A stretch of 60,615 nucleotides of DNA from Nitrospira sp. (GTDB lineage: Bacteria > Nitrospirota > Nitrospiria > Nitrospirales > Nitrospiraceae), in the NCBI GenBank assembly GCA_016788885.1, contig JAEURX010000007.1, positions 1 through 60,615 on the forward strand, in the 5' to 3' direction. The position numbers and the translations under genes are program-made. The number at the start of each line of letters is the position of its first letter. Positions within the stretch are counted from its first letter, which is position 1. Positions 40,511 to 44,161 of the stretch are shown here, piece by piece. The notes below the pieces were generated by a model. That model did not search any database. It was not told where the DNA came from and saw nothing but the letters and a program-made list of their open reading frames with translations.

Positions 40511-41806
40511 TCAACCGGAGCTCTGAAGCCACCGTACAATCACTTCTCGCATGCGAACGAAAAGGACCCACTTGGCGACGAGTCGCTGAATTGGCTTGAG
40601 ACAGTGGGAGAGGATACTCAATTGATGTTGGTAGCGAAACCAGGGCAAAGAGCGATTTACCACGTCGGTCTCGGCCCGACACAACTCTACACCAAGCTTC
40701 CAGCGCTCCCACCGAGAATCTTTGACCATCATATACAGAGCTTCTGCGCAGCTCTCATCAATGCCCTGCTCTGGACTCTTCAGCAACTGCTTGGGCATGG
40801 TCTGCATCAAGGCGGGTATATCCCTGTCTGCCTCGATCTCTTGAGCCACCAGACGTGGCAACGCGGTATCGAATAAGGTCTGCGCCAAACTTAAACCGAG
40901 TAATACTGCCCGTCGACACCTCCACTCCCTTGCCTGAAACAATACCCGGCTCCAGTCCAATGCCGGCCGGCGCCTCACAAGTTCGGCGACGTCGCAAATC
41001 CACTTCAACTGCTCCCAAGCATGTTTGGTCCCATGCACGCACAGCAGGATCAACAAGTCTTCAGGAGCCAGTCCCATCACCGATTTTGTTGGCAAATGTA
41101 CCGGCTTCAGTCTTCCCCGGAACTCTCCTCGGTCAAGCCGGAACCCAAAGTGTTGACGAGCCATCACCCACTGCAGATCGACGGCGACAATACCGTTTCT
41201 CTTCTGAAAAAAATGATAGGGCTCTTCAGACTCCTCTCCCTTCCCGGTATCGCGGCTGGTCAGCTGGTAGCCTTGAGACCACAGAACTTTTCTCGCCTGA
41301 GGAATCGCCTCCTGCTCCACGATCAAATCAATGTCTGCACACTCACGCAGGCTGATATCGCCATAGGCTATCTGCGCAAGTGTCACCCCCTTGAAGGGAA
41401 TCGCTCGTATGCCTTTGGCAGCTAACGCATCGACGAGTGACACGAGTTCTCTTGCTAGGAGCGTGTTCAGAAGCACGTTCGCCTGATTGCGCCGACGAAA
41501 GGCCTCATGAATTGTTGAGGGTACCGCCTTAGGACAGATCGTGACCAAATTGCGATACACCAGCGAGGCTACCCCATGCACCCGTGAAAGCTGCCAAATG
41601 ATGTCCCAATTGATGCCATCAGAAACCAGGTCCCCCACTTCAACGCGGGCGAACTCACTCATCGTCGTTCGTGCACAGAGGACGAGCAAACGCCCCTCCG
41701 CATGCATCCGAGATAAGGCTGTCGACGACTCGCCTCCCTTACGGCCACCAACCCCCATCCGTAGCGATCTCCGACTGACGGATGCAGACCCCGACTGCTG
41801 TCCCAT
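40511..41806 (-). CDS. Nucleotidyltransferase family 5-like RiPP-associated protein
   Basis: A 431-residue protein of the uncharacterised nucleotidyltransferase type (NTP_transf_5-like). The diagnostic block is IPFKGVTLAQIAYGDISLRECADIDLIVEQ (acidic residues D and D in ADIDLIV bind metal). The N-terminus GINWDIIWQLSRVHGVASLVYRNL is also typical. Such proteins recur beside lasso/RiPP B2, PqqD and HprK-like genes and are presumed to nucleotidylate or polyphosphorylate the peptide. The ATG lies 2 nt after the kinase stop (TGAAATG), so translation is coupled. Substrate is inferred from context only. Confidence 0.75.
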   Translation of the reverse strand: MGQQSGSASVSRRSLRMGVGGRKGGESSTALSRMHAEGRLLVLCARTTMSEFARVEVGDLVSDGINWDIIWQLSRVHGVASLVYRNLVTICPKAVPSTIHEAFRRRNQANVLLNTLLARELVSLVDALAAKGIRAIPFKGVTLAQIAYGDISLRECADIDLIVEQEAIPQARKVLWSQGYQLTSRDTGKGEESEEPYHFFQKRNGIVAVDLQWVMARQHFGFRLDRGEFRGRLKPVHLPTKSVMGLAPEDLLILLCVHGTKHAWEQLKWICDVAELVRRRPALDWSRVLFQAREWRCRRAVLLGLSLAQTLFDTALPRLVAQEIEADRDIPALMQTMPKQLLKSPEQGIDESCAEALYMMVKDSRWERWKLGVELCRAETDVVNRSLPWFRYQHQLSILSHCLKPIQRLVAKWVLFVRMREVIVRWLQSSG

Positions 41807-41807
41807 T

Positions 41808-42848
41808 TCAGCTTGGCCTCTTCGTTGAATGTTTGTCTAGGAGGGGCGTCACCAGCCAGGGCAAGTCCATGACGTCACGACCGAAGTGAAGCCGGTAGCA
41901 GTCAGTTTGCTGTACAAGCCGTGCCAATGCTTTGAATTCCTGCCGCGCGATCTCTGGCTCATAGACAAGGAGTGAATGCGGAAGAATCATCTCCAAAGCT
42001 AATGGTTTCGGTAGGGGTTCAAGGCAGCTGTGGGGAGCATCTATAACGGAAGGAAACAGAATAATTCTGGGAGGACAGGGCTGCCCGAGCGGACCGGGAT
42101 ACAGATCCTCCGCGTAGAAGTAACTTTTGGGAATTCCTGGATGGATCACCGCAGAGGGTGCATCACGCAATTCAGGGAAAAACGAGATGGTTTGATTGGT
42201 TACGTTAATTTTTAGCGGATAGGGAAGTAGTTCCACGCCGGTGTCGGTTACCCGAAAGAAGGGATGATCATCGGAGAGGTAGCGATATCCAGATCGCAGC
42301 AACGAGAGGAAGGAAGTCGTTTTCCCCCGCCCACTAAATCCGGGAATCAGCACTCCGTTCCCATTGTATTCGAGAGCCGTCGCATGGAAGGTAAAGACCC
42401 CCCTTCGTTTCAATAGTTCAGTCATGGCGAAATGCACGAAACTATTCCGGATATCCGGCGCCATAATCTCAGGACGCACGAGATACCCCTGCACAGAGAG
42501 AGCGCGGCCATCGATCACCACGAGACCCTCGTCATGAAAGTCAGCAATCAACGCACCGCGATCTGAATAGACATCGCATAACCAGGTGGTTTGACTCCCT
42601 GTACCGATAACGAGGCCGGACCCGCTGTGCAGCAACTGTGCTTCCGGGGAGATCCGTACAGGAATGTCGCTTCGTCGATGAACTGCATCGAACTGCATCA
42701 GCATGCGCTGAGTCGTGAGCGTCTCGCATTTGAAATACCGGAGGAACGACTCCACTGAATGCGCCAACTCAGGTGAGTTCGTCGTGAATGTCATCTTCGT
42801 GTCATGAATAGACAGCGGAATCTCATTCATTGTCGACATCGCACACAT
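41808..42848 (-). CDS. HprK-like kinase of the RiPP cassette
   Basis: A 346-residue kinase related to HPr kinase/phosphorylase. The P-loop is GFSGRGKTTSF (170-180), preceded by FHATALE like the HprK HASAV region and followed by YRYLSDDHPFF like the HprK SDD motif. HprK-like proteins of RiPP clusters (PadeK, ThcoK) phosphorylate Ser in lasso peptides; some are grouped as HPr-rel-A kinases in public family sets, as I recall. GGAG 8 nt upstream supports ATG 42848. It begins 109 nt after the precursor stop and is coupled to the nucleotidyltransferase. Confidence 0.78.
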   Translation of the reverse strand: MCAMSTMNEIPLSIHDTKMTFTTNSPELAHSVESFLRYFKCETLTTQRMLMQFDAVHRRSDIPVRISPEAQLLHSGSGLVIGTGSQTTWLCDVYSDRGALIADFHDEGLVVIDGRALSVQGYLVRPEIMAPDIRNSFVHFAMTELLKRRGVFTFHATALEYNGNGVLIPGFSGRGKTTSFLSLLRSGYRYLSDDHPFFRVTDTGVELLPYPLKINVTNQTISFFPELRDAPSAVIHPGIPKSYFYAEDLYPGPLGQPCPPRIILFPSVIDAPHSCLEPLPKPLALEMILPHSLLVYEPEIARQEFKALARLVQQTDCYRLHFGRDVMDLPWLVTPLLDKHSTKRPS

Positions 42849-42900: not shown

Positions 42901-42935
42901 GCGGGAACTGTCTGCAATTGCAGGCCAGTCCCCGC
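42901..42935 (-). promoter_or_regulatory. Hairpin between RiPP precursor and kinase
   Basis: GCGGGAACTG...CAGTCCCCGC folds into an imperfect hairpin of about 14 bp with an AATT loop, one bulge and one mismatch. It lies just downstream of the precursor stop (42958) and upstream of the kinase start (42848). No T-run follows on the minus strand, so it is probably an mRNA-stabilising or attenuating stem that keeps precursor levels above those of the downstream enzymes, as in many RiPP operons. Confidence 0.5.
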
Positions 42936-42957: not shown

Positions 42958-43071
42958 TTACGCAGGCTGTTGTCCGACTACGCGCGATAATTGAATCGCC
43001 GTTACGTCGCGCAACAACTCGTGTTTCACAAGTTGCGGCTGCACGTACGTCACTTTCTTCTGTTGCTCCAT
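42958..43071 (-). CDS. Lasso-like RiPP precursor peptide (37 residues)
   Basis: A 37-residue peptide too short for standard gene finders. AAAGGAGGTGAG lies 5 nt before ATG 43071, a near-perfect ribosome binding site that overlaps the PqqD stop; two TAA codons end it. Residues 9-24 read YVQPQLVKHELLRDVT, which has the spacing of the lasso leader motif Y-x2-P-x-L...T (Tyr9, Pro12, Leu14, Thr24), except that the usual Gly at +9 is Glu18. Cleavage after Ala25 would leave a 12-residue follower (Ile26-Ala37) with one Ser29 and no Asp or Glu, so a classical lasso macrolactam cannot form. Confidence 0.75.
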   Translation of the reverse strand: MEQQKKVTYVQPQLVKHELLRDVTAIQLSRVVGQQPA

Positions 43072-43076
43072 CCGAC

Positions 43077-43394
43077 TCACCTCCTTTCAGTATGAAGTAA
43101 TCCCTCTTGGCAAAGCTGGTTAATCAGATCCAGGCCGTCCGACTGAGCCCGATCAGGCATCACATCAAAATGTTGAGAAATGGAAGAAAGTACCTGCGCT
43201 AACGAATGACTGCCAGTACATTGTTCCCACACATACGAACCGACAGCATTCAACGTGTAGTAGCGGCCTGTGCTCAGATTGAGCAACACACACTCCCCAT
43301 CAAGAACCGCCCCGTGCACATCTTCGTGATGCACAGGAAACAAGCGGGATAGATCGGCTTGATCCTCAACACAGATAGGTACCTCAACAGACAT
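43077..43394 (-). CDS. PqqD/B1-type RiPP recognition protein
   Basis: A 105-residue stand-alone PqqD-like protein (lasso B1/RRE type) that should bind the leader peptide and present it to the B2 protease. The core AVLDGECVLLNLSTGRYYTLNAVGSYVWEQ and the helix SLAQVLSSISQHFDV match the family. GGAGGTG before ATG 43394 fixes the start. Its stop is 5 nt before the precursor ATG, and its last codons carry the precursor's ribosome binding site. Confidence 0.85.
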   Translation of the reverse strand: MSVEVPICVEDQADLSRLFPVHHEDVHGAVLDGECVLLNLSTGRYYTLNAVGSYVWEQCTGSHSLAQVLSSISQHFDVMPDRAQSDGLDLINQLCQEGLLHTERR

Positions 43395-43726: not shown

Positions 43727-44161
43727 CTATAAGTCCTGGTCGATCTCCGGGGAAACCGAGCGGGGAAACGTGAGAGTTACCGTGAAGGCTTTCCAGTAAG
43801 GGGATGGTTCGAGAAAATCACGATTATTGAGTGTCAGCCACGCATGTCCTTCGAGGTGGTGATCAAGCTTCATCACGCCACAATGAAATTGAACGGGAAT
43901 TCCTGCGCGACAAGCGTAGAAGAAGAGGGTAAGAGCACGCGGGAAACAGTTCCCTTTGGGATGATAAGGAAACATCCCAAGCCACCGATCAAGGTAGTAG
44001 GCCACATCCTCGATGGATGTCTCGCTACCGCATACCGGCACTGGTTTGCAGGCCAGCCAATGGAGCAACCGTTTCAGACTAACCAAGCGCAAGGCTAGTC
44101 GAACTCCACACATGACCAATCCGATGCCGAAGATCAGTCGATATTTTCTGAACAACAGCAT
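43727..44161 (-). CDS. Lasso-type B2 protein (transglutaminase-like leader peptidase)
   Basis: A 144-residue transglutaminase-like cysteine protease of the lasso peptide B2 family, which cuts off the leader. The catalytic Cys72 lies in GNCFPRALTLFF and His106 in LEGHAWLTL; the FLEPSPYW region follows as in the family. An N-terminal hydrophobic stretch (LIFGIGLVMCGVRLALRL) is also common in B2. It begins 63 nt after the purF stop on the same strand with only a weak GAGG upstream and no terminator between, so it may be read from the purine transcript. Confidence 0.85.
   Translation of the reverse strand: MLLFRKYRLIFGIGLVMCGVRLALRLVSLKRLLHWLACKPVPVCGSETSIEDVAYYLDRWLGMFPYHPKGNCFPRALTLFFYACRAGIPVQFHCGVMKLDHHLEGHAWLTLNNRDFLEPSPYWKAFTVTLTFPRSVSPEIDQDL

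Follow-up and report, generated by a model that had tools for sequence, protein, structure and literature searches.

A short RiPP precursor with a lasso-like leader in a cyclase-free, kinase-containing locus of Nitrospira

Gene organization of the locus

The window, the whole 60.6-kb (60,615-nucleotide) stretch of Nitrospira DNA analyzed here, contains five minus-strand genes between purF and a tlpA-like gene, in the order B2 leader peptidase, PqqD, precursor peptide, HprK-like kinase, and NTP transferase. The B2 gene (43727..44161) encodes a transglutaminase-like cysteine protease that matches PF13471 and NF033537 above cut-off. Its residues C72, H106, and E118 are kept in 38 of 40 aligned rows, the other two being the broken copies L139 and L053. 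Next is the gene for a PqqD-type RiPP recognition element (B1/RRE; 43077..43394; PF05402, 64 bits), for which the nearest solved chain is TbiB1, followed by PbaB1 and LppB. A second, weak PqqD-domain match occurs elsewhere in the same genome, inside a 725-aa open frame (G000:C20:11863-12057). Downstream of the precursor gene, the kinase gene (41808..42848) adjoins the gene for an NTP_transf_5 nucleotidyltransferase (40511..41806; PF14907, 228 bits), which is found in 29/29 genomes of the genus. The original prediction left the kinase and NTP transferase unmentioned, and we add them here as a pair that suggests the chemistry of the product.

The best NCBIfam match for the kinase, TIGR04352, scores 60 bits (cut-off 200), and PF07475 scores 21.6 bits, below its cut-off of 33.3. 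Because these family scores are low, the assignment draws on motif and context, which suggest an HprK-like enzyme. Residues H155, K176, D193, and D194 are present in 47/47 aligned rows, and the spacing of H155-G170-G173-G175-K176-T177-D193-D194 is identical to that of H148-G163-G166-G168-K169-S170-D186-D187 in BsfK, a kinase whose phosphorylation target is core Ser3 of a lasso precursor (PMC10368454).

A lasso cyclase (LasC, PF00733) is absent from the cluster. No SpI-like leader peptidase was found in the purF-tlpA interval, where B2 is the sole protease, and in the genus the cluster has no dedicated exporter, an exporter search there having returned generic ABC transporters only (~30%). We rejected a PQQ-like cofactor as the product of the locus because PqqD occurs there alone, with no radical SAM protein.

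The precursor gene and its ribosome binding site

The precursor gene (42958..43071, minus strand) encodes a peptide of 37 residues, MEQQKKVTYVQPQLVKHELLRDVTAIQLSRVVGQQPA. It is intact in 20/29 genus genomes, always at this position of the operon, and six of the 20 carry tandem pairs. In a separate collection, 11 named genome records contain it, all titled Nitrospira and including the completed chromosome of Candidatus Nitrospira defluvii. Searching the PDB with the precursor, either as a single sequence or as a profile, gave no matches. The translation bears out the predicted positions of Tyr9-x2-Pro12-x-Leu14, Glu18, and Thr24, as well as the predicted composition of the 12 residues C-terminal of Ala25, which include no Asp or Glu and a single Ser, Ser29.

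The Shine-Dalgarno sequence AAAGGAGGTGA (43077..43087, minus strand) contains the pqqD stop codon TGA, an overlap that had also been anticipated. Its anti-SD pairing energy is -13.2 kcal/mol, compared with -10.6 for PqqD, -7.4 for the kinase, -5.8 for the NTP transferase, and -5.6 for B2. The earlier description of this site as far stronger than those of the enzyme genes thus applies to three of the other four operon genes and not to PqqD, and the adjoining tlpA-like gene has a nearly equal value (-12.3 kcal/mol). The GGAGG at the pqqD/precursor junction is kept in 19/19 genus loci where the junction is visible, and is absent from the last pqqD codons in 3/3 loci that kept pqqD and lost the precursor.

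Selection on leader and core

The leader (residues 1-25, Y..P.L..HE....VT-A; 42997..43071, minus strand) has a YxxPxL motif with Thr at -2, and its predicted cut site after Thr24-Ala25 follows from the rule that Thr is the penultimate leader residue in lasso B2 cleavage (PMC10368454). The predicted core, IQLSRVVGQQPA (42961..42996, minus strand), includes Ser29 (codon 42985-42987) and a free tail at residues 32-37. Residues Y9, P12, H17, E18, R21, D22, V23, T24, and A25 are invariant in 26/26 genus precursors, partly by construction because the search patterns required the leader Y, P, and H and a D-V/I-T end. Ser at T+5 is also invariant (26/26), and the patterns did not demand it. The broken copies of L145, L057, and L139 were left out of the precursor lists.

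Across the 26 precursors, from 20 genomes, pN/pS is 0.44 in the N-terminal stretch and falls to 0.09 across Tyr9-Thr24; it is 0.21 across Ala25-Val31 and reaches 0.81 over residues 32-36. The leader is therefore strongly constrained and the last five tail codons are nearly free. This outcome agrees with the original prediction, which had proposed aligning related Nitrospira loci and expected a conserved leader with a variable tail; equal conservation of every codon, which it would have taken as the mark of a non-precursor small protein, was not observed. The constrained block extends seven residues beyond Thr24 and includes the invariant Ser, so that the free tail is only ~6 residues long. Tail length varies among genus precursors, and tandem copies differ in their tails.

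Loss of the precursor together with the kinase and B2

The precursor profile matches 21/29 genus genomes, comprising the 20 with an intact gene and one in which it is frameshifted (G011). In all, the precursor is lost or broken in eight genomes and cut by a contig end in G009. The kinase is readable in 20/20 intact genomes (as two pieces at contig ends in G016). Of the 18 intact genomes with a visible B2 gene, 17 have it in a single frame, the exception being G016, in which it is split. Kinase and B2 are each absent or broken in 8/8 precursor-negative genomes. PqqD persists in 3/8 of these. A Fisher test (p 3e-7) assumes independence of the genomes, an assumption that does not hold here, and an NTP-transferase tree, with five of the losses in one clade and three apart, points to ~4 losses. 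The coincidence of precursor loss with loss of the kinase and B2 argues for their functional linkage, and the repeated losses mean that the system is dispensable. Frameshifts in relatives, which the original prediction would have counted against a precursor, do occur, with outright losses, in 8/29 genomes, where they accompany loss of the kinase and B2. Judged by its constraint pattern and this co-loss, the 37-residue ORF is a genuine RiPP precursor with a lasso-like leader, as first proposed, and no chance ORF.

The NTP transferase is intact in 29/29 genomes, including the eight without precursor, kinase, and B2. Because it outlasts the other genes in every loss genome, it may not belong to the pathway and may act outside it.

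A hairpin between the precursor and kinase genes

An intercistronic hairpin (42901..42935, minus strand; z -4.8) separates the precursor and kinase genes and is the only minus-strand hairpin of such strength in the window. In 23 loci, namely those of the 20 intact genus genomes plus G029, G224, and G197, a stem begins 20-35 nt 3' of the final precursor, and strong stems also lie behind most sister-genus precursors. No such hairpin is found in the precursor-kinase interval of 8/8 decayed loci. Among 14 distinct hairpins, 97.4% of cells pair and 7/11 pairs changed on both sides, values reached in 0/500 shuffles. These 14 come from 21 aligned rows, from which we left out two near-duplicates as well as the window and its four nearest relatives, whose 3' arms were shifted out of register by MAFFT. 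A separate pairing count over all 21 rows used each sequence's own predicted structure, which favors pairing. In the tandem loci (L036, L037, L039, L040, L041, and L053), the last copy is followed by a strong hairpin and the first copy mostly is not.

No T-run follows the hairpin in the window sequence, and we therefore read it as a putative transcript-stabilizing or dosage element. No Rfam family scored above threshold in the locus, one sub-threshold CRISPR-repeat match (E 0.32) being disregarded, and a sigma-70/terminator scan of the locus was at background level.

Related clusters in the family

The precursor profile matched 37 of 295 phylum genomes, all in the same family and in 3/135 genera. 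In the sister genus g6, genomes have up to five precursor matches and two types of cluster. Type A clusters encode PqqD, precursor, kinase, NTP transferase, B2, and an ABC exporter, which is MsbA-like in 4/4 sister-genus loci examined (two confirmed by Pfam). The leaders of the 35 type A precursors end in DIT-A (DIT-T in one), and their hypervariable cores are 12 to 38 residues long. Outside the genus, Ser is found at T+4 in 35/35 of these precursors.

Type B clusters, found in g6 and also in genus g2, have two ATP-grasp-like ORFs, fatty-acid-hydroxylase-like proteins, and their own PqqD, kinase, and NTP transferase. The second ATP-grasp ORF is RimK by Pfam, and the first is so labeled from sequence reading only. 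The leaders of the 18 type B precursors end in T-G, and at T+4 there is a Tyr in 11 of them and a Ser in the other seven. Loci L056:7919-12618 and L119:12018-18396, for example, have the leader ESYxEPVLxAHELLRD[VI]TG and cores such as QKYKEK... or GGASGVK.... Type B looks like an undescribed RiPP branch. In trees of the kinase and of PqqD, the genus sequences, type A, and type B fall apart from one another. At a further locus of G001 (L061:4607-10154), a pair of radical SAM proteins is encoded together with an HprK-like kinase, PqqD, and an NTP transferase.

Proposed pathway and alternative explanations

We consider it likely that the peptide gives rise to a linear RiPP phosphorylated on Ser, with PqqD presenting the precursor, B2 cutting it, and the NTP transferase perhaps adding a decoration. 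By analogy with characterized relatives, PqqD would bind the leader at Tyr9-Pro12-Leu14 and present it to the HprK-like kinase, which would phosphorylate Ser29, and B2 would cleave after Thr24-Ala25 to release the 12-residue core. More speculatively, the NTP transferase might then decorate the phosphate. The Shine-Dalgarno sequence that overlaps the pqqD stop, together with the hairpin, may raise precursor output above enzyme output, the dosage role of the hairpin being a speculative part of this scheme, as is any biological role of the product. The phosphopeptide reading draws on the invariance of the Ser, the BsfK-like motif spacing of the kinase, a Tyr-Thr spacing like that of LppA, the co-loss, and the missing cyclase. 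Counting against it are the kinase scores below family cut-offs, a genus cluster without a dedicated exporter, and a Ser-Thr distance in the genus that is one residue more than in the sister genus and two more than in linear polyphosphorylated peptides (LPPs).

The same phosphorylation could instead serve a short regulatory peptide that is modified on Ser29 like HPr and retained in the cell as a state signal, a reading that we regard as unlikely. Syntenic retention in the genus, the conserved IQLSRV block, the HprK-like kinase, and the generic nature of the best ABC matches would all accord with a switch of this kind. However, the B2 protease and free tail suit processing, and sister-genus relatives have hypervariable cores, multiple copies, and an ABC exporter. 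An intracellular switch and a secreted product may both be compatible with the data. A bolder version, to which we likewise attach low probability, is that nitrite-oxidizing Nitrospira has a conserved phosphopeptide that lost its exporter and serves intracellularly as a signal or cofactor carrier. The locus would then be what is left of a RiPP system spanning the family, to which the undescribed ATP-grasp/fatty-acid-hydroxylase branch with the same leader also belongs.

A lasso peptide with its cyclase supplied from elsewhere in the genome is improbable. The lasso-type leader, RRE, and B2 fit such a product, full-length PF00733 proteins are encoded elsewhere in the window's genome, and Asp or Glu is found at core positions 7-9 in 11/26 genus precursors. 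The original statement that there is no ring-forming acid thus applies to the window copy and not to the family. In a type A subgroup (L120, L121, L123, L124, and L125), the cores, GQSGYNC[DE]D...RRWWNND, have Gly1, Ser3, and often Asp8 with a WW tail, resembling a phosphorylated lasso core, and no cyclase was found nearby. Yet the position of the acid is not conserved, only ~4 residues would remain behind Asp8, and the window core starts with Ile. Moreover, a search of 18 further genomes for PF00733 proteins closer than 10 kb to the cluster found none except in G236, where one is ~4 kb away with unrelated ORFs between. We therefore rejected a lasso peptide proper on both cyclase and ring acid, and the term "lasso" fits the leader and protease only.

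Also improbable is an unprocessed small structural protein or PqqD partner: constraint does reach V31, but the tail has a pN/pS of 0.81 and changes in length, tandem copies differ there, and the leader motif and B2 point to processing. As for a chance ORF, the leader motif occurs in one of the window's 313 small ORFs and 11 times in 40 triplet-shuffled windows (~0.28 per window), so that the motif alone is weak evidence and conservation decides, and the purifying selection seen across 26 precursors, together with synteny, leads us to reject this explanation with near certainty.

Comparison with known systems

Nitrospira has a central part in the oxidation of nitrite during wastewater treatment (PMC9765116). 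The same source reports that antiSMASH detects several RiPP clusters in every Nitrospira genome and does not mention lasso peptides, so the precursor locus may have been flagged generically among those clusters. Within open PMC articles, we found neither literature on this Nitrospira system nor a characterized Nitrospira peptide product, and PMC8939145 and PMC12710340 mention neither Nitrospira nor HprK. The locus widens the range of cyclase-free, kinase-tailored RiPPs beyond Bacillota to nitrifying Nitrospirota, and it suggests that the B2 protease of lasso systems can also work in a pathway that has no cyclase. Its 12-residue cores with one invariant Ser are named substrates for kinase and protease assays.

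The phosphorylated lasso peptides (Bsf, PMC10368454; paeninodin; pseudomycoidin, PMC9266682) share with the window B1/RRE, B2, NTP transferase, kinase motif spacing, and Thr at leader -2, and sister-genus cores have Ser3 like BsfA. In pseudomycoidin, the NTP transferase is required for a hexose on phospho-Ser, with nucleotidylation not excluded (PMC9266682). Unlike these systems, the window cluster has no macrolactam cyclase and no fixed ring acid, and it cannot be classed with lasso peptides despite the corresponding RRE, B2, and leader. Graspetides are comparable only with the type B sister cluster, outside the window, where ATP-grasp-like enzymes adjoin the precursors; in contrast to graspetides, type B has a lasso-type leader, PqqD, and HprK.

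The closest likeness is to LPPs, which combine an RRE, HprK-like kinase, NTP transferase, SpI-like peptidase, and MsbA-like exporter without a cyclase (Popov et al, 2026; PMC13381572). Their product is linear and phosphorylated on core Ser3, with a leader running from Y-16 to T-1, and they are described as restricted to Bacillota, with Nitrospira unmentioned in the text (PMC13381572). The window likewise has an RRE, HprK-like kinase, and NTP transferase without a cyclase, a YxxP leader with a Tyr-Thr spacing of 15 (equal to Y-16 to T-1 in LppA) and His at +8, and a conserved Ser just beyond the predicted cut. Compared with the LPP leader YxxPxVLxHQxIxFETxxS, Y, P, H, and T are equally spaced, V and L are swapped, Q is replaced by E and I by L, and F-E differs. 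However, the window uses a B2 cysteine protease where LPPs use the SpI-like LppS, its core has 12 residues rather than the 45 of LppA, and Ser lies at T+5 in the genus and T+4 in the sister genus rather than T+3. The Nitrospira system belongs to Nitrospirota and is syntenic within the genus, whereas LPPs are patchy, and an MsbA-like exporter is present in the sister-genus version only. The window system therefore probably works like an LPP system and differs from that class in peptidase and exporter. New here are the B2-using variant, its occurrence in Nitrospirota, the hairpin that follows the precursor gene, and the sister cluster with ATP-grasp-like enzymes.
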